From Rhododendron vialii (Eukaryota; Streptophyta; Magnoliopsida; Ericales; Ericaceae): DNA of 64,000 nt. The notes beneath the pieces were generated by a model that did no database searches, was not told the DNA's origin, and was given only the letters and a program-made list of their open reading frames with translations. The DNA is taken from contig NC_080566.1 of assembly GCF_030253575.1 (NCBI RefSeq), forward strand, positions 9,929,501 through 9,993,500, read 5' to 3'. Both the position numbers and the translations under genes were made by a program. Below are positions 6,031 through 49,880 of this stretch, one piece after another. The stretch's first letter is position 1. The number at the start of each line of letters is the position of its first letter.

Positions 6031-6274
6031 TTAATTCTTAAACAACCACAAGAAGAAGACAATTTTATTATTAATTTTGTTTTTGTTGTGAAGAAAAAGT
6101 TGTCCATTGGAATTTACTACTCTGAGATGCAACCTTGTTTTGTTTTGTCTTTTCTAATTGTATGTTAAAATATGAGTTGGGAAGGTTGTATCTATTAGAT
6201 TGGATCTGATGAAATAAGTTAAAAGTTCTCGTTCATTCATGCTCAAAAAAATAATAAAAGACTAGCAGTGCGCA

Positions 6275-6945
6275 TGAAGAAAGAGTGATGATCCAAAACC
6301 AGAAGATACCAAAGAGTGATCATTTTAAGTATTTAGGCTCAATTATTAGTAGAGATGGAGAGATTGCCGATGATGTGACCAATAGGATCCAAGTGGGGTG
6401 GTTCAAGTGGAGGAGCGGTACTGGTGTACTATGTCAGAAGAGGGTACTAACAAAATTGAAAGGAAAATTCTATGAAACTGCCATGAGACCAGCAATACTT
6501 TACGGGACAGAGTGTTGGCCTATTAAGAAACAACAAGTGAGCAAGATGAGTATAACGGAAATGAGAATGTTGAGGTGGATGTGTGGTAAGACTAGACGAG
6601 ACAGGATTAGAAATGAAACAGTTCGTGAGATGGTAGGTGTAAAACCTATAGTGGAGAAGTTGATGGAAAATAGGCTAAGCTGGTTTGACATGTCTACCGT
6701 AGTCCAAGAGATGCAGTAGTTAAGAGAGCGGATATGATAGCTTTGGGTAGCAATGCTACGGGGAGGGGTAGACTTAAATTGACATTAAATGCTATTGTGC
6801 GCAAAGATATGAGTATTATGGGTTTGTGTGAACAAGTGACCCTTGACAGAGCTCAATAGAGGAAAAAGATTCATGTAGCCAACCCCAAGTGTTTGGGACA
6901 TAAGGCTTGGCTTGGTTTGGTTTGGTTTGGTTTGGTTATAGTTCA
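6275..6945 (+). pseudogene. RTE-type LINE 3' remnant (reverse transcriptase C-terminus)
   Basis: The frame 6285-6719 encodes a stretch typical of the C-terminal end of plant non-LTR reverse transcriptases: FKYLGSIISRDGEI, a LYGTECWPIKK motif, MRMLRWMCGKTRRDRIRNE and a late LSWF. The frame breaks near 6690, and the remaining similarity (VVKRADM-like, GRGRLK-like) continues in other frames with a stop. The 3' end has CCCCAAGTGTTTGGGACATAAGGCT followed by TTGGT repeats, typical of RTE-clade tails. The copy is 5'-truncated and cannot encode a working protein. Shorter related tails lie at about 41572-41612 and 46598-46632. Confidence 0.8.
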
Positions 6946-11800: not shown

Positions 11801-14800
11801 AAAAGAAGCAACAGTCAAAACATGAAGTCAACTCATGGACACTACCTATATCATGGGATGAGTTGTATGTGGAAAATGTGGAGGAAAAAAAATAGAGAAG
11901 CATTAAATTGTTAGCATATATGCTTTTTGGTAACTCTGGTTTTGACAGATGACATATGTCGGTTTGCTAACATTGCACAGAACTTTGTCTGCAATGTTGA
12001 ATTTGGCTACCCCTTAACTATAATGCAAGGAAGGATTTGGCTTTTTGCTTATATAGACCTAAGATGCACAGAAACATATAACAGCCTCATGTATCCGTGT
12101 TGGACACGAGATGATACTCTCTGACAAATGCAAACAAGCCTAAAAAGATGTTCAAACTTTTATGATGTTTTTTTACTCAGACATTGTGGACACTCTAGGA
12201 TACAGTGAGGCACTCTTGGGACACGTTAAGGAGACAGTAGGAGGTAAAAGAATAATTTTTAGAACATGGCCCAGAGTTAAAATTTCCGTAGATGTTTAGT
12301 TCTTGAAGACTCATATGATGACAGTTGATTTGTATCTTCACAACGTTAATACCATTTGTGGTTTTTATCTTAATTTGATAGAAATACTATTTTTTATTGT
12401 TTATATGAATTTTCAAGATACATGAATAAAGGAGAGATATACTATATTTTATTTGACGTGCCCTCAAGGTGTCCACGTTCTAATTTTTACAGAAATGTCG
12501 TGTTTGTGTATCTCTGTTGTGTCATGTGTCTGTAATCTGTATCCATGCTTCTTAGACATAGACCACAGACAAGGCAGCATGGCTGAATGTAATGTTTTGA
12601 ACCCTGACATTACAAAAGGGTTTAGAAATTCTCTCTAGTTGATAGTCATCTTACGGAGCTCATTAACATTTGGATTGTTGGGAACTTTTGGCCCACTTTG
12701 TTGGGATGAAATTAAAGCAGCAATAAGGCAAACTTGAAATACTGACTCTCTATATACGTTTAACTGAGTTAGCCACATCCGCAAGCCTTACCCAATAGAT
12801 GGTGTAAAAATAAAACTTAAGATGAACGAAAACTTTGGATTGGTTTAACTGTCAAATTGTAGTATCTTGTAAAAGTTGTATATTTCACATGAGAATTCGA
12901 AAGGCCTTGTTCATTTTGAGTTAGGCAGAGTAGGTTACACTGATGTCAACATGGAAGAAGCTGGAAATGCTGGGATGGTGCCAGTGAAGCCATTGTTGCT
13001 CACGTTCCTGCATTCCATAAGCAAGTACTTAGCTACATACAGTCCTTTACATCATGATCAGTTCAACAACAGAAAGAGTTGAGAGTCATACAGTTCCTTT
13101 AGGTGGGTCAGCTCAGCCATACTGGGGGGGAGTGGTCCTTGGAAGTTACTGAAAGAAATATTCCTGAAAAAGTTTTGGCAGGTTCGGTTGCTAGTTATTG
13201 CTACGATCAGGTCAAGTTATAAAAACGGAAGTATGACACTGCAGCCATACAGAATTGTAATAGTGCTTTTTCGAGGTAATCGATGTACGTTAAGAAAAGT
13301 ACAGAGAGGAATTGCAACTTACAATATAGTGATGACTAAGGAATTATTGACGGCCTCACAGTATAGACCGTGCCAGGAAATAGGATAACATGGGTCTCCA
13401 GACCAGGTCTTCAAGACCTCATTGTTCTGGTTATCCCCCATTAACTCATTCCTAACCTCCGTAATGACATCCACTGTAGAGAGACAGAGAGACAGATCTA
13501 TAAAACTGTTCTATAGCATCACAAAGTAAACAGCTACACCCCTCCATCCCATTTCGTTTGCCTAATTTTTTGTTTTTTGCTAAGCAGTTTTAATATTTCC
13601 TATTTTGTTGTTTTCCAGACAACTTCAAAAACTTTGTAGATGAGAACTACTTGAAATCTTGAGATGGGAGAATTTCTTTTGTTGATCCAATTAAAGGGCA
13701 CGGATGCTGAAAATGGACAAAGAAAGTGGGACTATAAATCCAGGTGTGAGAAGTGATGGTAACCTACCATCATATTGAGCGGTCTCTTGAACCGATAGGT
13801 GCACCTGCATCTTGTATGTACTAATAATGGGCCCAAACTGTGATCCATTTGACGCCTTGACTGAGGTCAGATTGAGAAATCCATTTACAGTGAAGTTCAA
13901 AAGGTCTGCTTTGTAATTGGAATTTCGGTTACCATCTTTTTGCACAGTCCCTTGAACTGATGGGTGTACCCGCAAGATCTCGTATGCACTAATAATGGGC
14001 CCTAACTGTGATCCATTTGATGCCTTGACCAAGGTCAGATTAAGAAATCCATCTGCATTGAAGTTCAATAGGGCTGCTTTGTAATTGGAATTTCCAGCCA
14101 ATATATCAATATTCTCCTGTCTTTTCTCATCATTGATGAATATATCGAACACCCTTTGACCCATTTGGACAGAGTCATCGAGCTCGAGAAAGTACAGGTG
14201 CAGATTGTAATTGTTGTTCCCGGGAACAAGGTCATTGTGCAGGAACACTAAACGAACTGGATGTGTTACAGCTGTTTGTAGCACTTGGATAGGAGGCGCT
14301 GCGGTTTCAGTGTTGTTAATGTTGGCAGCGGATGATGATGTATGGTTAGCTTCTTGGTTGGTATGCAACTCCTTTCTCCAAATTCGATCATACCGGTCAT
14401 TTGGATACCTGAGATTGCAAATGGTGAACATGGGAAAACAAAGATAGTTTCTTCTGTGTGTCGGAAATATAGAAAACCTTGGTATGGATTAAAGCAACTT
14501 GCGTTACAGCTGATTTATTTCGGGATTAATGTTTTCGGTTTTCAACTCTGATTGAGGTGGTAGGAGTTTTATGAAGTACTCCAACACAAACGTTTCTGAC
14601 CTTAGATGGAACATCTTGATCCTTATTTCATGTTCACATGCATACTAGAGGAATGGAGGATATTTTATTTCTTCATTTCTTGGATTTGTCACAAGGAAGT
14701 TTTTGGTATGTTGTCATATGAAAGTTTTTGCGGTTTGGCAGGGCCAGAAGGCGAAAATGGAGGAAAACCTCGGTGGCAGTGGCGCTCATAGCAATGCGTG

Positions 14801-15572
14801 TGGAGTGACAGAGGTTGCGATGACGTGAATGTTCTAAGAATGGCGGCAGTATTAGGGTTGGTACGTATCTATGATAATGAACCAGTTGGCAGTGTTCGTG
14901 GGTGGTTCGGTGCAGATGACTTTTCACTTGTGTTTGTGACAGTCAATATTTTGTTTTAGCAATATTTTTTTGAAGATTGTCTCATCTTTTTATTTTCCTT
15001 TTTGACTAACAGAGACCGAGGATACCTGATTTTTAGCTCATTGCTTCCGACATCAACTCTCTCAATCAGCTTCAAAACACTAGAGGGCTCTTCTTGCATT
15101 AGATAAACCGAATTACCCAAAGGCCTCAGTTCAAGCTTGGAAATGTAAGGATCTCCCTCCTCCACTTTCGCGTCCTTCTCTAAACAAAAATTTATGTAGT
15201 CGCCGGTAGATTTGAAAACTCCTTCCACTTCCATATCAAACAATGAATTCACCGTTCCTATCAGCGTAGTACCAATCAAGACATTGAAGCTGAAGAAGGA
15301 CTTGGAAGGCGTCCCTTCGGAAATGAATGTTCCCCTTATCAGGTAATCTTGATTCTTCACCGTCGTCAAGTTATAACACCATTTGTTGTTTCCAATCTGT
15401 GAACTGAAAATTCGAACTCTACCATATCCGACTGTGTTGTTTTGCATTGCCCTGCTGGTTACGTCTTGGCAATTTGATCTATCCGGATACCATTCGCTAT
15501 CCGTTATCCAGCTTATATTGGTAATTGGATCAATAACATTTGAATCCGCACAACACCTTATACTCACAAAAT
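8865..15572 (-). CDS. SYMRK: symbiosis receptor-like kinase (SYMRK); signal-peptide exon not found
   Basis: Fourteen minus-strand exons join without a frame break: 15572-15026, 14408-13768, 13473-13323, 13163-13092, 13007-12939, 11784-11713, 11561-11490, 11406-11240, 10982-10756, 10626-10500, 10420-10352, 10277-10088, 9951-9819, 9197-8865 (about 956 codons). Exons 2-3 are the malectin-like domain (starts [12 protein letters not shown]). Exon 4 has the WSGDPC cleavage motif. Exons 5-8 hold 69-72-bp LRR units. Exon 9 carries the membrane span ([20 protein letters not shown]). The kinase has [30 protein letters not shown] and LDPEYYSTHH, and ends PPQPR. All catalytic motifs are intact. Known role: plasma-membrane co-receptor of the common symbiosis pathway (arbuscular mycorrhiza and nodulation). 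Including the missing first exon, the 15-exon plan matches known SYMRK genes. Oddities: a tandem duplication in exon 3 and one GC-AG intron. Confidence 0.93.
13768..14099 (-). repeat. 168-bp in-frame tandem duplication in SYMRK exon 3, including the splice donor
   Basis: Two adjacent copies (about 14099-13932 and 13931-13768 on the minus strand) encode [20 protein letters not shown]... and [20 protein letters not shown]..., both followed by KASNGSQ(L/F)GPIIS. The same-word offset (GCTTTGTAATTGGAATTTC at 13908 and 14076) gives a period of 168 bp, or 56 codons. Copy 2 ends at the real donor GATG|GTAGGT. Copy 1 keeps the matching GATG|GTAACC in the same phase, now readable as coding sequence. 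Confidence 0.88.
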
Positions 15573-15639: not shown

Positions 15640-16157
15640 TTTTTTTTTTAACAGCAAAAAAGAATTTTATTAACCTTTGAAATTGTTACAAAGACTAACA
15701 GAAACAACGAGAACAACACAAATGTCGAATCAGAGACCTAGTCCCTTAATTGGCAAGATGCTAATCAAGAAAACACCTAATGGGACAAGCCCAACACCTA
15801 AAGGCCTAAAAGCCCATATAAAATGGGACAAGCCCATACAATTAAACCTGATGGGACACAACCCAAACCGCTAAAAGGACTACAAGCCCAGATTAAATGG
15901 GACAAGCCCAAACCTAACCCTACTACTGCATGCTCAAGCAAACACCACCAACTTCACCACCAGCCACGACGACGGAATAACAGACAGCCACAAGCCAACC
16001 GATCGCCGCGGCCGCCCCATAAGTCGTTAGGCCAAGAATCCGATTGATCTAAGGAGAAAAATCGGCAGAGACACACGCAACCTTGCTCCAACAACCCACC
16101 GGATAACCCCAACAGGAAATCCGGCGGACAACCAGCGGCGGAGGAGAGAGGAAAGCA
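15640..16157 (-). mobile_element. non-LTR retroelement fragment with 11-bp target-site duplication (SYMRK intron 1)
   Basis: The perfect direct repeat AGTTATTTGAT at 15629-15639 and 16158-16168 flanks the insert. The insert starts with poly-T then AACAGC..AGAATTTTATTAACC on the plus strand, which is a poly(A) tail on the minus strand, so it inserted in the sense of SYMRK. The interior carries degenerate GGGACAAGCCCA repeats and a GC-rich far end. No domain was recognised. Confidence 0.75.
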
Positions 16158-17485: not shown

Positions 17486-18087
17486 CATCAATTAGTACTT
17501 ACAACTAACCTGATTGTGTCATCTATAACAGTAGTAAATACTGTTGAGAAATTAAGGTAAAACCCTGTCTTCTTAATTCTATTGACAATCATGATATATT
17601 TGCAACAAAACTTTTCAAATACTAACCTTCTTGTGCACAAGCTGATTTGAAAGATATTAAGAGGCAGATGATGAAACAGTTGACCAATCTCGAATTTTGA
17701 ATAACCAATCCCTCCATCATCGAAAGTTCCAACGCAGAAATCGGTCCATTGAGTAATCAAAACTTATAAGCAGACTCTTAAACTCATCAACTTCCTCCGA
17801 TTACCCAACTGGCTATTATTCTAAATCCTATCAACAATCTCATCTCTAGCTCACTGCGTCCCCGTGTCGAAAAAGAAAAGAAAGCTCTTCAGTTCCTATA
17901 TTTAATTTTGGTAAAAAAAATATACACAAGCAAAATTTCGAGCTTATGAGAGTCTTCAATGAATTTGCTTGGTTCAAAAGCTTCAATGGGTGACAAAAGA
18001 GCATCTAATGAGAAGCAGAGAGAAGAGAATATGCTAAAACTGTGTTTGACTTCAAATGTAGGTGGTATTGCTGAAGCAATGTGTGTG

Positions 18088-41677: not shown

Positions 41678-44600
41678 ATGGAGAAGGAACAAGAATTAGA
41701 GTGGGCAGAGGCCCAGAAGATTGGGATTACTGTAGACCTAGTTGCTGCAGCCAAACGGCAACTGAAATTTCTTGCAGCTGTTGATAGGAACCGCTGGCTC
41801 TATGAAGGCCCTGCTCTCGAAAGAGCCATCTACAGGTAATTTGATTTAGTTACTTTGTTGATCTTTTGGAGTTGCTTATAGGACATTTCGGATGTTGTGA
41901 AATTTAGTTTGTGGCTTTTGCTTTTCTATAAGATTCAAGGTTTTAAATCGCGGTATCGGGAAACGTAATGATATCGTGATATGGCCGTACATCAGACCAT
42001 ATTGGTCCGTATGTGTGACTCAGGGTTTTAAATCGTGGTATCGGGAAACGTAACGGTATCGGTAATATGGCCCTCTATCAGACCATATCGGTTCGAATCG
42101 GCTGATACTTAAGTAATGATATCGAAGGTCAAAAATTCCGTTACGTAACGGCCGATATGATACGTGATGGCCTTATTTAAAACCCTACGTTTGGTAATAA
42201 CTAACAAAGGATTACAAAGGTCAGATTTCTAACACAGCCTCTCGTCTACTACTGTTTTTGTTAAAGAACCCTTCTGTACAAATTGCAATAAATACCTTGC
42301 TCACCAATCCGTAAAAGGCCCTATCCAATGACTCTGTTCAAGAAGTCTCAGAAAAATCAATGAGAATCTTCTAGTTATATTCATACTCTATTCTTCTGTT
42401 AAATTTACTCCATATATACCCTTCTAACCATTGTTGGAATAGTTTCCAACTTCATTTTGGTGCTAATTCATAGAATGACATTATCCCTAGTTTCTGCTTG
42501 ATGAAATGAAATGCAACTGTTCTGGTTTCGGCACTGTGGTTGGTCTTTTCAAGTATTTAATAGATACCATGGATGATGCATAGTGTTTATATTAGGTTGG
42601 TAGTGATGTGGTTTTCCCAATGAATTGTATTCTTTTCAGATTTTGTGAAGCTATTGCATTCTTTTATGTGAGTTTGATATGTCATCTGATTCATCTGAAA
42701 TCTTTCTTCATGTGCCTTGCAATAGAAGGTTTTTTTTAGTATCATGAGTAGAACTTTAAACAACCCTGATTTCAGGTACAATGCTTGTTGGCTGCCATTG
42801 CTTGCAAAATATTCTGAGGGCCAGATCATCGAAGGACCTTTGGTTGTTCCTCTTGATTGTGAATGGGTTTGGCATTGCCACAGGCTAAATCCAGTAAGTT
42901 TTTGAGGTGGAATTTAGATACTACCAACCATCTTTATGTTTGTGTGTTTATTTGTATACCCACATGTTGGCGTGGAGATTGATAAGATGTGTTTCTGAGT
43001 TTAATTTTCAGGTTAGGTACAAGTCCGACTGTGTGGAATTATATGGAAGGATTCTTGACAACCACAATGTTGTTTCTTCTATTCAAGGGTCTTCAAAAAG
43101 GGAAACTGAACAGACTTGGAACGAACTATATCCCAATGAACCCTATGATTTTCCTAAGAAGAAACAAAGGTCTTGCAAAATTGAAAGTGAACAAACTTGG
43201 AACAAATTGTACCCCAACGAACCCTATGATTTTGATTTGCCCAGTGGTTTCTTTGAAAAAGTATCTGGAGATGGAAAATACACACAATATGATTTGCTTT
43301 CAGCTGTTCAAAGGCAGGTTCCATTTTTTTACCAGGTAAGTGACAAAGCGGTCATGCTTAATTTCCTTTATACTACAACGCAGGAGATTTGAAACTAGTC
43401 ATGGAATCATATAAGTCCAGTTATGTTGTGTTCTTTTATGGTATCATACTCGTATTTTGTGTAGATGACAGGGATGAATGATAACCTACACACATACTTG
43501 GTCTTACTTAAGTACAATTCCATCACTCTGGTGTTGCTCTAATCCAAAATTTATATGTCTAGATATAATTCTGTGGTTATTCTCCGTTGAACATTGGAGT
43601 GAAGAGAAAGCAATGAAAGGATTTTACTGCTGGAAACTCCTAGATCAAATCTTGTTTCTTTGTGCTGAGTGTAGCTCCTACCTGCTGTTCATCTGGCTCC
43701 ATGTGATGTAAAAGTTTGGATATAGAATTCTCAAGATAAATCACCGTACTGGACATAAGCTTAGTCACTGGAGTACATTTTTTCCCCTGGGTGATCAACT
43801 TAACCAGTATCCACCACCCTTAACTTAATTGAACTTGTGTGTTTTCTTGCTAATCAACTTAACCAGTTTCCATACATACAATCATTTTGGACATAGAGCA
43901 TTGGAATTTGAAAGTATGCGCTCCATGAAATATCTTGATCTTTTTTTCTTTTCTTATTTTTTTAATTTTCTATCTTCTTATTCCTATTTGGAACAGGTTT
44001 CCAGACCCCATATGGACAATGATCTCTTTCTTGAAGCAGCTGTAGCTAGATACAAAGGGTTTCTGCATCTAATCAAGAAGAACATGGAGAGATCTTTAAA
44101 TCGCTTTTGTGTTCCAACATACGACGTTGACCTTATCTGGCACTCTCATCAGTTACAACCTGCTTGTTACTGCAAAGACCTCAAAGGAATACTTGGGAAG
44201 GTTTTAGAACATGATGACACAGATTCAGACAGATCAAAAGGGAAGAAGTTGGATTCTGGATTTTCTGATACTACCAAGCAGTGGGAGGATACATTTGGCA
44301 CGAGGTATTGGAGAGCAGGGGCAATGTATAGAGGTTCTGCCCCATCTCCTATCATGGCGCCTCCTTGTTCTTCATATATTGTGGCCGAGAAGGTTGTTGC
44401 GTCCAATGAGCATAAGGAAACTGTACGTCTTCCTCGTGTGAAGGCTGTGGAGGTAATTTCAAAATCTTTGTACTCAATATTCTTTATTTTCTGTTGTATC
44501 ATGGGTCCACATTCTACATAATTAAATTACTCCACATTTTGTACACCAATAGCTTTTTCTTGCACTGTTCATTGCACAACAATGATTACCAATATCATAT

Positions 44601-47600
44601 ATTTATGGTCGCACTCGATAACTTCTAAACATCTGCCTTATATTTAAGCTCAGTAGTTCTTCAATGAACATTAGTCAAGTATCAACAATTAACCTATAAA
44701 CCCCTGGACGGCTGGACCCAGCATATTTGTTCCTGTGAAATATTGTAGCGTCCTGTGTCCCCCACTGATTTAGGGGAAGAGTGTGTGAGTTTTTCAGAAT
44801 TCAGCTTTAGATCCAAACTTCACCATTAACTTCCTTCTTTTTCGTCAGTGTTGAATTTTTACCAGATTTACTTACACCCAGGTATGTTTATAGTTGTGCT
44901 GTCAGTTGAGTCTTGACTGAAGTGAAGGAAGTTGTCAGAGCTTGTCCCACATTGGGTAATTATAACCTCCAAAACTAGTATATGAGCCTAGGCATCCTCT
45001 TCACTCATTGTCAATTGGTTTTGAGTTGATGCTTTAAGATGGTATTATAGCTCGACTTTCGGAGGCTTTTGGACAAGACTTTCTTGATTGATTGCCCCAT
45101 TATTTGTGCCATAAGTGCAGACAAGACTTTCTTGATTGATTGCCCCGTTATTTGTGCCATAAGTGCACCTTGTTTCGTTATGATTCCATTATTGTGGATC
45201 CTTTGCTTACCTCTCCATGTGCAGGTTAGGTCATGCGTGCAAGGGAGTGTTAGAGCTGTCCCGAATTGGTTAATTATAACCTCCAAAACTATTATCCCTC
45301 TCCATTCCTTAGCAATTGGTTTTGAGTTGGATGCTTGAATAGAAGTTATAGTGCTTCTTGCTTGAGTTCAATAGTGTGCTTTGTTGAATGGTGAATGGGG
45401 TTCTTGTAGCCTTTTTTTTTTTTTTTTTTTATCATCGGGTTCTTGTAGCCTGACTCATTGTTTCTTCTCACGTTATTTTTTGCAGGTCATGGTGGAATTT
45501 GTTGGTGTCAGAAACTTACCAGAAGACCACAAGGGAACTCTGTCTGTCATATTTGCTAAATCACAGCCTGATACAATCTTCAATGCCAAGAGGAGACTCA
45601 GTATTTTATCAGAGTCTGGGGAGAAACAGGTTGCTTCTTTCAATTGTCAATCTAATGGATATCTGCTATTTGAACTGGTCTCCCGCTCTCCTTCCAACTT
45701 AAAACTATCAAGGCCATATAAAACTTTGGGTTCCACTTCTTTCTCTCTGGAGCATTTCCTGAACCCCGTTTCCACCCTCTCCGTTGAGAAGTGGTTGGAG
45801 TTGACGCCAAGTTGCCGAGTGGACTCAAAGCCAATAGGTCTAAGGGTTGCCCTCTCATTTTCCATTCCCACCCCAGCACCACATGTGCTTCACATGGTTC
45901 ATTCCTACCCGTTCTGGAAGAGGTCTTGTTTTTTTCCATTTCCTGGAATGTTGCAATTCACTCAAAGTGGGACTCGTGTCATTGATGAAGGTTGCAATGA
46001 GGTCATCAGCCTCCAGATGAGGTATGTGACATGCCCCCACCCCCCCTCCCCGGCCCTTTTCTTTCTTTTTTTGTCACTTTAGCTTGCAAATGAGTTAGGT
46101 TGCATTTTGGTTTGGATGGTTTAAACTGTTTTGTTAGTTAGGTCAATGTTTGCATAGAATATTACGTATATCTTCATGAGAATGTGTCTCGGTAATAACA
46201 CAGAAAAATTGTTCATTGTAAGTTTGAAATGTTTTCTCCTGTAGTGATCTGCTTAAAATTTATCTTAACCCTCACACCTCTTTAACAATATAAGATTTGG
46301 AATGTTTTGACCATGGTATACAGTGGTATTAGAATAAACAAAGGTTTCTTTTAGCTGTAGAAACCTGCTGTCAATGACAATATACTCGCAGGTTTTTGTT
46401 ATGGCAGCGATGCTGGCAACAATTAAGGGTGTCTCAGAATCCGTCTCTCTCGTAGGAGTTAATCTTTAGTAACAAGATATTACAAGGTTCCATTGGCTTC
46501 ATCTTTTAGACGAGTTTGCTCCTAGACCATAGCTGTATTGAGATGAATATAAATACACAACTTATTTTTGTGTAATTACTATTTTAGAGGGTGGCTGTCC
46601 CCAATTGATTTGGACTTGATTAATTTGGTTTACTATTTTAGAGCATAAAATTCTCACTGTAGTCATTAATCCAATAAAATGATCCATTAATCACTTCAAT
46701 GATCTAATTAGTCTGTAGAAACATTGGATCAATCCAAACTTTGGTGAGTTCGCTCGAAATAATCATTCATTTGGGCAGCAGTTAGCTGCTCATTGTTGTG
46801 GCGTATACCTTCCATTGCTTCATTCATTCTCTAATCCTGTGAAATGATGAGCATTACCATGAGATTTACATGGATGAACTTGTCAATGATGGAATTTAGT
46901 AATTTACCAAGTATCTTGTCCCTTTCCTTGGTACAATTATCCAGTATCTTGTGCGTTGTATGATACCTATATACTTACAAAACTTGCTCTGAATATAACA
47001 CTACTATATATAGGTTATGGTAAGGTACCATGATTTGCACTTCACCGTAAGAACATAAAAAAGTTGATCTTGAAGTTAGGCTATGTTTGGTTTGATGGAA
47101 TGGGATCCTATGGAATGTCTACTCTGTTGTTTGGTTCACTAAAAATTGAAGGAATAGCCATTCCTCTTGGAATTATTATTCATTCAAATAAAGGAATAGC
47201 TATTCTATTTGAAAAGTAAAGAATTACAATTCCATTCCACCATCCCTATTTGGATTGTTAATGTCACTCACATAATTGCTATTGCCACTCCAAATGATAC
47301 TAATGCCACTCCCAAAACTACTACTGCCACTCAAAATTCCATTCCATTTAGATGTGATTCTAGCATACCAAACGCTGGAATTGGAATGCAAATTCTATTC
47401 TTGCTATTGATTCCTAGCCACAACCAAACATGGGAATGTGAATGATTATTCCATTCTCAATTCCTCCAATTCCTTTCCTTTCTTAATAACTCCATTCCAT
47501 CCAACCAAACACACCCTTGTATCTTCCCTGCAGTGAAGAAGTTAGTCATCATCTCTTGCTATTTTTGTTGTTACGTAGTATAAAGTATTCATTGTTAGAA

Positions 47601-49880
47601 GCACGTAAGAGTATGATGCTGATATCCCAAGTTTTTGTGGAAGGGGCAGAAATAACTCTAAATTGAAGAAAGAGGTGATTGGAATTTCAAAATCTGGCAA
47701 AGTATGTACTCTTGCCGAATTCGTAGGGGCAGAATGGTCTTTAATAGATTCTTCCCCATGGTCTCTCGACCTTCGGAAAAGATCCGATAAAGATGGTGAC
47801 CTTTTTGAGCTCACAGGCCTTCGGAAGGTAACATATTTCTATTCCATTCATTTTCAGTTCATATTACGTCAGACTATGCACCCATGTTTTGTTGTTTTGG
47901 TATCCTGTTTGTATACTTCACTTTAGCCCCTAACTGAAGGGGAAGTTTTTGTCAAATAAATTCGGAAACACTTGGTTTTCCTCATGTAGGATGCTGTGGG
48001 AGATGGTTTGAACTTTCGACCTTTAGTGTCTGATGCTTTTGCTGCCAATTTCCCTATTGTTTTTGTTGGACCATGAATTCCATAAGTTGGGTGCAGAGGC
48101 AGGGAATTGAGAAACCAAAAAGGAGGGAGGGGATCATTCTTCAGTATAACAACTACGGGTGTCTATAGTTTATCCTCTTGCTGAGCAGGTCGTAAACCTT
48201 GGCGTTTTTGCCTCGGCAAAAGTTGTCTATGTTAGCAAGCCTGTGGTATCCGATTGTTATTCTTTATTCCTTTAGATGACGGCTAACAGAGATCATGCAT
48301 TCACATAGTATAAATCTTATCAGTGACTTGCAAATGCATCCACTTGGAAAACAAGCAAGAAAGAGGCAATACCTGCAAATTTGTGTCACACAACATGTTT
48401 TAGTGCAGACTCGCAGTAGCTTTATAAACATGCATGACTAATATGAATTCTTGATACAGGTAAAACTATTCCCTGGTAGAAATCTGGAATATGAACCCAA
48501 GCAATGTGATAAGCATAGAAGCGAACGTGACTTCGTGACCTTAGTAGAATTCTCAGCAGAAGACCCGTATGGCAGGGCAATTGCATTGCTTGACTTGAAA
48601 TCCGGGATTTCCAAGGTACATTTTTTGTTCTTCACTTATATCCGGATTTTTTTGTTCAGTGGTAAAGACTCAGCCCAATAACCTTAAGGTCTTGGGTTCG
48701 AGTCTCAGCACAACCACATTGTGTATTATTTTCAAAGGTTAGGCTTGTCCTATCCTCATCCATCCAATGGATTTAAGTTTAAAAAAACACCCAGTTGGTA
48801 CCCATTAGAAAGTTAAAAAAGATAAAAATTTGTTTTGGTGTAGCTTTTGAATGATGGGATTTGACATTGTCATTCAGTGAGAATAGCTTAAATTGATTGA
48901 TTTAAAATCCTGCATGTTAAAGATTGTAGTTATGCAAAGATCCATAAAATACAGGTACATCCCTTTTGCCTCTAATCCATTGACCGATCTGGTCACAGCC
49001 ACCTATAGCTAAACCTCTTCTTTTTTTTTTTTCTTTTTTCTTTTTTTTATAGTGTGAATGATAAATCCCTTCCCTTGAAATCAACAGCTGTCCCAAAGGA
49101 GCCTTTTTTCAAGGCTAATGAAGTCTTCTCCTCCTAACTGACTGTGTCTACTTTTTCCTTTTACAACAGGTAAAAGAAGAATGGCTGGTATTGCCTGGAA
49201 TCATTTTGACATTTATTCTTTCTGATATTTTGAGAGAGAAGGGATATGAAGGCCTACAACATAGTGAATTTGGAAACAAATTGATCACAAAGAAGGAAGC
49301 GGCCTTGAATGTGGACACGGCTAACAAAAACAGACTGGCATCAGAAAAAGCCACAGCATGTAGCGAAGGGTGTGATAGTGGGTGTAGAAATGCATTACTG
49401 AGAGGAGGTGGAAACACACTGAAAAGTGGTGGTTCTGGAGGCGGAAGTGGAAATATAGTGAAGAGTGGCAGTTGTGGTAGTGGTTGTGGCGGCAAATGTG
49501 GAAACATGGTTAAGAGCGGTGGTTGTGGCAGTGGTTGTGGAGGCAGTTGTGGAAATAAGGTGAACAGCAGTGGCTGTGGTGGTGGGTGTGGTGGTGGTAA
49601 ATGTGGAATTACGGTGGACAGCGGTGGTTGTGGCGGGTGTGGTGGTGGTGGTGGTTGTGGAAGCGGATGTGGAAAGATGGTGAACAGCAGTGCGTGCGGT
49701 AGTGGTTGTGGTGGAAAATGTGGAAACTTGGTGAAGAGTGGTGGCTGCGGTAGTGGTTGTGGTGGAGACTGTGGGAACATGGTGAATAGTGGTGGATGCG
49801 GAGGTTGTGGGGGTGGTTGTGGCGGTAAGGCATCTGGAAAAAGTACTGCCAATCCCTCTGCCTTGGGAAACCCAAATTAA
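41678..49880 (+). CDS. GRDP: glycine-rich domain-containing protein (GRDP, DUF1399)
   Basis: Eight exons join in frame: 41678-41835, 42776-42893, 43012-43335, 43997-44452, 45486-46021, about 47650-47827, 48460-48615, 49170-49880, giving 878 aa, somewhat longer than Arabidopsis GRDP1/2. The DUF1399 region carries two copies of a W-H-x-H motif (WVWHCHRLNP in exon 2, LIWHSHQLQP in exon 4). Exon 5 is C2-like in position and holds the YPFWKRSCFFPFPG stretch. Exons 6-7 contain SGKVCTLAEFVGAEWSL and VKLFPGRNLEYEPK. Exon 8 ends in a Cys/Gly-rich array. Family knowledge: GRDPs affect growth and stress responses; no enzymatic activity is established. The start of exon 6 is ambiguous between in-phase AG sites (47631, 47643, 47649). 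CAG at 47649 is preferred. Exon 3 has an 81-bp tandem duplication, and intron 4 carries a TRIM. Confidence 0.92.
41937..42187. mobile_element. MITE-like element with duplicated head (GRDP intron 1)
   Basis: AGGGTTTTAAATCGTGGTATCGGG at the left and TTATTTAAAACCCT at the right are inverted ends. The head sequence (TTTTAAATCG(C/T)GGTATCGGG...CAGACCATAT) occurs twice in tandem (41940 and 42014). Such TTTTAAA...ATATCG elements are common in plant introns. Confidence 0.55.
43087..43248 (+). repeat. 81-bp in-frame tandem duplication in GRDP exon 3
   Basis: TEQTWNELYPNEPYDF and SEQTWNKLYPNEPYDF are encoded 81 bp (27 codons) apart, with related flanks KRE and KIE. The ACTTGGAAC words lie at 43114 and 43195. 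The DNA copies differ at several positions, including silent ones, so the duplication is not recent. Confidence 0.85.
44933..45341 (+). mobile_element. TRIM-like LTR retrotransposon in GRDP intron 4
   Basis: Direct terminal repeats of about 100 bp begin TGTCAGAGCTTGTCCC (44933) and TGTTAGAGCTGTCCCG (about 45249) and share GGTTAATTATAACCTCC-type sequence and CAATTGGTTTTGAGTTG. TGGTATTATAGC after the first repeat is a decayed form of the initiator-Met tRNA primer site TGGTATCAGAGC, and CAAGGGAG before the second is a short polypurine tract. The 5-bp GAAGT flanks both ends (44928-44932 and 45342-45346). A 48-bp internal unit (ACAAGACTTTCTTGATTGAT...) is duplicated in tandem at 45073-45166. No coding capacity. 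Confidence 0.72.
47083..47517. mobile_element. MITE with TGTTTGGTT-type ends in GRDP intron 5
   Basis: GGCTATGTTTGGTTTGATGGAATGG at the left pairs with CCATTCCATCCAACCAAACACACCC at the right. The interior is built from GGAATAG and ATTCCATTCC words and an internal CCACTCCAAATGATACTAATG-like repeat. This is a common plant hAT-related MITE type. Its right end lies about 130 bp before the exon 6 acceptor. Confidence 0.65.
48650..48780 (+). mobile_element. tRNA-derived SINE fragment in GRDP intron 7
   Basis: GTTCAGTGGTAAAGACTCAG is A-box-like and TTGGGTTCGAGTCTCAGC is a near-perfect B box about 30 bases later, as in tRNA-derived SINE heads. The body (GGCTTGTCCTATCCTCATCC) ends in AAAAAA. Confidence 0.6.
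49365..49835 (+). repeat. Cys/Gly-rich tandem array in GRDP exon 8
   Basis: The C-terminus repeats a unit of about 16-18 residues of the form (K/N)SGGCGSGCGGKCGN(M/L)V, roughly eight times with variation in length. At DNA level it is a GGTTGTGG/GGTGGT-rich minisatellite. The reverse strand shows long Pro- and Thr-rich frames that are shadows of this array. Confidence 0.9.

Follow-up and report, generated by a model that had tools for sequence, protein, structure and literature searches.

Rhododendron vialii SYMRK carries a frame-keeping tandem duplication of its exon 3 end with two same-phase donors

We analyzed a 64,000-nucleotide stretch of Rhododendron vialii DNA (the window) and found that exon 3 of its gene for SYMRK, a receptor of root symbiosis, ends in a direct tandem repeat with a period of 168 bp, so that an upstream donor (D1) at the ancestral end of the exon is followed by a second donor (D2) of the same phase. 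Donor choice, and any effect that it has on cleavage of the receptor, we infer from the sequence. In the reading that we prefer, to which we give an even chance, D2 would be the main donor and would add a relaxed and potentially N-glycosylated spacer of 55 residues before the GDPC motif, with D1 perhaps yielding a minor form.

The SYMRK gene and its repeated exon end

The minus-strand gene at ~17720-8865 had been named SYMRK in an earlier note made from the sequence, and its kinase scores, its Pfam domains and its exon structure all agreed with that name. Against solved structures the kinase scored 569 bits with 6m0u (SymRK) and 559 bits with 8peh (SYMRK), while the next best match, FERONIA, reached 253 bits; the malectin-like part matched FERONIA weakly (E 0.22), among nine weak matches. 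The Pfam matches of the long protein were Malectin_like (PF12819, 174.5 bits), leucine-rich repeats (LRR_1) and the kinase. Fourteen exons were located and could be joined in a single open frame to the stop, which together with a candidate exon 1 gives a 15-exon layout (Table 1). From exon 2 on, the long form encodes 955 residues and is open throughout, and the D1 form, with 900 residues, is equally open. The WSGDPC motif lies in exon 4. The gene is intact; the kinase frame runs without a break up to the stop and includes the HRD and DFG motifs.

Table 1. Features of the SYMRK gene, in window coordinates (a slash marks the exon-intron border)
Feature	Position	Strand	Remarks
Candidate exon 1	17627..17720	-	Signal-peptide-like ORF ending ...SACAQE, phase 1, joins exon 2; prediction only
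Exon 2, first part of malectin-like domain	15026..15572	-	Translation, Pfam
Exon 3	13768..14408	-	641 bp in the long form; 476 bp with D1
Copy 1 (168-bp unit)	13927..14094	-	Last malectin-like part, D1 and 6 bases after D1
Donor D1, ATG/GTAACC, phase 1	13932..13933	-	Exon 3 of 476 bp; same codon as paralogues
Copy 2 up to D2	13768..13926	-	Homology continues through the donor GTA, to 13765
Donor D2, ATG/GTAGGT, phase 1	13767..13768	-	Strongest U1 match in exon 3 and intron 3
Exon 4, conserved extracellular region with GDPC (codons 13399-13388)	13323..13473	-	Sequence, translation
Exon 5, leucine-rich repeats	13163-13092	-	Translation
Exon 6, leucine-rich repeats	13007-12939	-	GTAACC donor at end, like D1
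Exons 7 and 8, leucine-rich repeat and imperfect repeat	11784-11713, 11561-11490	-	Translation
Exon 9, transmembrane segment	11240..11406	-	Judged by eye from translation
Exons 10-15	10982-10756, 10626-10500, 10420-10352 (GC donor), 10277-10088, 9951-9819, 9197-8865	-	Intact kinase, then stop

Exon 12 has a GC donor (CGAG/GCAAGT, 10352/10351, minus strand), which is ordinary for SYMRK since a GC donor in intron 12 has been reported for most dicots (PMC10668435, in part). The full layout of 15 exons with three LRRs appears to be present (13163-11490, minus strand). Markmann 2008 reported at least one exon missing from SYMRK outside the eurosids (PMC2270324, in part); with its apparently full layout, the SYMRK of Rhododendron, an asterid, does not appear to follow that pattern. 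A separate 74-bp tandem repeat of 1.9 copies occupies 15775-15910, which is SYMRK intron 1 if candidate exon 1 is right. Elsewhere in the window, the plus strand carries a gene for a glycine-rich domain protein, with exons at 43829-46082 (Pfam GRDP-like and C2_GRDP), and after it a cysteine/glycine-rich ORF (49122-49880). Neither this ORF nor the plus-strand ORF at 6258-6719 had a Pfam match at E <= 0.001; the latter resembles, when read, the last part of a LINE reverse transcriptase.

The repeat at the end of exon 3 had been described beforehand as a 168-bp in-frame tandem duplication including the exon's own 5' splice site, and local alignment together with shuffled controls bore this out. 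Copy 1 starts at 14094 and copy 2 at 13926, both with the same 19 bases, and the alignment contains a single 3-bp gap. When the first 476 bases of exon 3 were compared with the remainder the score was 200, against a maximum of 33 in 500 dinucleotide-preserving shuffles. Period and gap both keep the frame, and the two copies are open in the frame of the gene and closed in the other two frames. Their aligned codons, 156 bases in all, show 23 differences, and copy 2 lacks one codon. The duplication is old and preserves the reading frame. That the copies have diverged argues against an assembly artefact, as false duplications would be expected to be near-identical, and a wholly artefactual repeat was rejected for this reason; although one assembly was examined, that of R. 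vialii haplotype A is based on PacBio HiFi reads, if it is the source (PMC10338486, in part), and we consider an artefact extremely improbable. In the 532,647,506-base genome, copy 2 DNA matched at E <= 0.001 only the two adjacent places in exon 3, and so did a 74-residue protein piece around copy 1, in searches that score best candidates only. Resting on these exon 3 matches, the genome would hold one SYMRK.

Two donors and the ancestral end of exon 3

D1 (after 13933) and D2 (after 13768) lie 165 bp, or 55 codons, apart, and they form a pair of the same phase with a common acceptor before 13473. The acceptor was where the earlier note had put it, and the claim of two donors that each leave one base of a codon held, as did that of a downstream donor giving a form about 55 residues longer beside the GDPC region; the position proposed for the copy 1 donor (about 13936-13940) was 3-7 bases off. 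By U1 duplex energy D2 (-8.3) ranked first and D1 (-5.0) fourth among the 45 GTs of exon 3 and intron 3. By reading, the copies differ by four bases after the donor GTA (GTAACC versus GTAGGTTACC), which makes D2 the better match. D1 and D2 could not be told apart by the base composition around them, which did not favour D2. Two further GTs on the minus strand, at 13805 in copy 2 and 13970 in copy 1, had U1 energies of -6.8 and -6.4, stronger than D1; by count they are in phase 0, and joining them to exon 4 would be out of frame.

With D2 the strongest and D1 the fourth U1 match, exclusive, default use of D2 is no less likely than the making of two forms. Substantial use of both donors, along the lines of the earlier note, is possible but rather unlikely; it would give an ectodomain of ancestral length and one 55 residues longer, and regulation of their ratio might tune how the malectin-like domain is released. 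Besides the shared phase and acceptor, use of both donors is favoured by the position of D1 at the ancestral exon end and by the strength of D1, which is within the range of this gene (it beats 7 of the 13 SYMRK donors by U1 energy, and the exon 6 donor is likewise GTAACC); the clearly better U1 match of D2 weighs against it.

That D1 is the ancestral end of exon 3 follows, on sequence comparison, from the length of the exon and from a paralogue GT at the same codon, in agreement with the earlier suggestion that the upstream donor would give the ancestral-length receptor. For exon 3 of Trema orientalis and Parasponia andersonii SYMRK the published table gives 475 (PMC10668435, in part). Of the 15 exons compared with this table, eight agree (4-8, 11, 13 and 14), the table being exactly one below the window for each; we took its lengths to run one short for this reason, and exon 3 then fits exactly with D1 and only with D1. 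The other six (1, 2, 9, 10, 12 and 15) differ by other amounts.

A longer query matched the genome at 18 places. The SYMRK gene accounts for two of these, and a tandem second match was found in none of the paralogues among the 16 other places. Twelve of these 16 were scanned for the closing motif N-A-x-E, four (L011, L013, L016 and L020) being left out as they match the earlier part of the query only. The motif was present in 10 of the 12 and absent from L018 and L019. Nine of the 10 paralogues have a phase-1 GT at codon 19 from the motif N, exactly the place that D1 holds in copy 1. L007, L008 and L014, which belong to these nine, carry a second and better-matching phase-1 GT at codon 21. In L017, the tenth paralogue, the sole phase-1 GT is weak and lies at codon 16. 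Of 5000 trials with random sequence, 1799 had a phase-1 GT somewhere within 25 codons and ahead of a stop. D2 lies at codon 18, because copy 2 has lost a codon.

Coding state of copy 2 and a probably extended ectodomain

Comparison of the two copies gave a dS of 0.251 and a dN of 0.139, a ratio of 0.55 that did not depart significantly from neutrality (Fisher P 0.19). In neutral runs 900 of 2000 were stop-free, and in 29% of these 900 the ratio was as low or lower. The differences by codon position (5, 8 and 10) were not distinct from an even spread (P 0.44). Under a simple Poisson model the 15 nonsynonymous differences were fewer than the 25.3 expected at omega 1 (P(<=15) = 0.02) and too many for omega 0.25 (P 0.007). 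Copy 2 is stop-free, for which the neutral chance, with copy 2 alone changing, is 0.76-0.47 for 8-25 substitutions. The rough neutral chance of a stop-free, frame-keeping copy 2 together with a frame-keeping period was 0.08, the product of 0.58 (no stop, 16 substitutions), about 0.42 (no frameshifting indel) and 1/3 (period), where 0.42 uses an indel:SNP ratio of about 0.07 from one Rhododendron assembly (PMC10338486, in part) and an assumed frameshifting share of 0.8. This chance and the pattern of substitutions are modest evidence that copy 2 is translated, under relaxed constraint.

The earlier note had placed the duplicated segment at the end of the malectin-like domain and just before GDPC, and both placements stood: copy 1 closes Malectin_like in Pfam, and the GDPC codons are in the next exon. 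Malectin_like scored 178.3 bits when closed by copy 1, 162.7 with copy 2 and 157.7 with neither, a gain of 20.6 bits for copy 1 and 5.0 for copy 2. The smaller Pfam model Malectin (PF11721) did not separate the copies (47.9 with copy 1, 48.4 with copy 2 and 46.0 with neither). The residues A and E of copy 1 and of the seven aligned paralogues are replaced by T and K in copy 2; all 10 motif-bearing paralogues have A and E, which were part of the search pattern. From the Malectin_like scores, and because A and E are retained in copy 1 and lost in copy 2, we conclude that copy 1 is the one that does the old structural job and that copy 2 is for the most part released from it. Three N-glycosylation sequons lie in copy 2, raising the total before GDPC from 7 to 10, and in the long form the distance from AYEIL to GDPC increases from 38 to 93 residues. 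The structure of long-form exon 3 predicted without an alignment had a mean pLDDT of 38.8 and was set aside.

It would also be in keeping with the nearly neutral look of the substitutions if D1 were the sole donor in use, copy 2 being an intronic relic and the receptor an ordinary one. It would fit this that one codon is gone from copy 2, as are the A and E residues of an N/S-A-x-E strand kept in all 10 region-bearing paralogues, and that D1 gives the published exon length. However, the frame-keeping period, the frame-keeping gap and the absence of a stop would then all be due to chance, at the rough product given above, and the best U1 match, D2, would have to be ignored; we consider sole use of D1 unlikely.

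The tandem duplication took in the end of exon 3 along with the exon's 5' splice site and a small number of intron bases, and the frame survived because the unit is 168 bp. Under main use of D2, splicing would then probably have shifted for the most part to this downstream donor with its better match, and D1, the old donor, would now be read as Gly-Asn codons. In the receptor, copy 1 would still close the malectin-like domain, and the relaxed 55-residue spacer would have been gained between this domain and the GDPC cleavage region, while D1, ancestral in position and phase, may yield a minority of transcripts of ancestral length.

Relation to known receptors and to models of intron gain

When SYMRK of Lotus sheds its malectin-like domain near GDPC, its partners and its stability are affected (PMC12582464 and PMC6024595, both in part), and a natural insertion of 55 residues just before GDPC is a ready-made test of spacing. 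The duplication also bears on how SYMRK changed in the family of Rhododendron, which has kept SYMRK, is reported to have retained about 45% of the surveyed symbiosis genes and forms ericoid mycorrhiza (PMC12529035, in part); in roots of Rhododendron fortunei, SymRK transcripts were raised with an ericoid fungus (PMC5078686, in part). It is conceivable, but doubtful, that two ectodomain forms are made, that the glycosylated spacer alters shedding of the malectin-like domain and that splicing thereby sets the readiness of SYMRK for cleavage in an ericoid-mycorrhizal host.

SYMRK exon composition differs between lineages according to Markmann 2008, which, as far as the part seen goes, does not mention a duplication of this kind (PMC2270324). 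A search of the literature by titles and openings of abstracts, most subscription papers being outside its scope, found no SYMRK with this layout. The gene resembles the 15-exon, three-LRR SYMRK/DMI2/NORK (PMC2270324 and PMC10668435, both in part) in its malectin-like domain, GDPC, leucine-rich repeats, transmembrane segment and kinase; unlike it, exon 3 is 165 bp longer up to D2 and has two donors of the same phase. With Trema and Parasponia SYMRK (PMC10668435, in part) it shares the lengths of exons 4-8, 11, 13 and 14 after the one-short offset, the GC donor of intron 12 and, if D1 is used, the length of exon 3. Tandem duplications that span exon borders are known to change splice sites (PMC4974935, in part). 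As in the Rogers model of intron gain by tandem duplication, splice signals were copied here by a duplication that extends from exon into intron. Unlike in that model, the donor side was copied and there is no new acceptor and no new intron: by inspection the unit copies no acceptor, and the copies share one open frame. What the duplicated exon end of SYMRK presents is a choice between two donors of one old intron.
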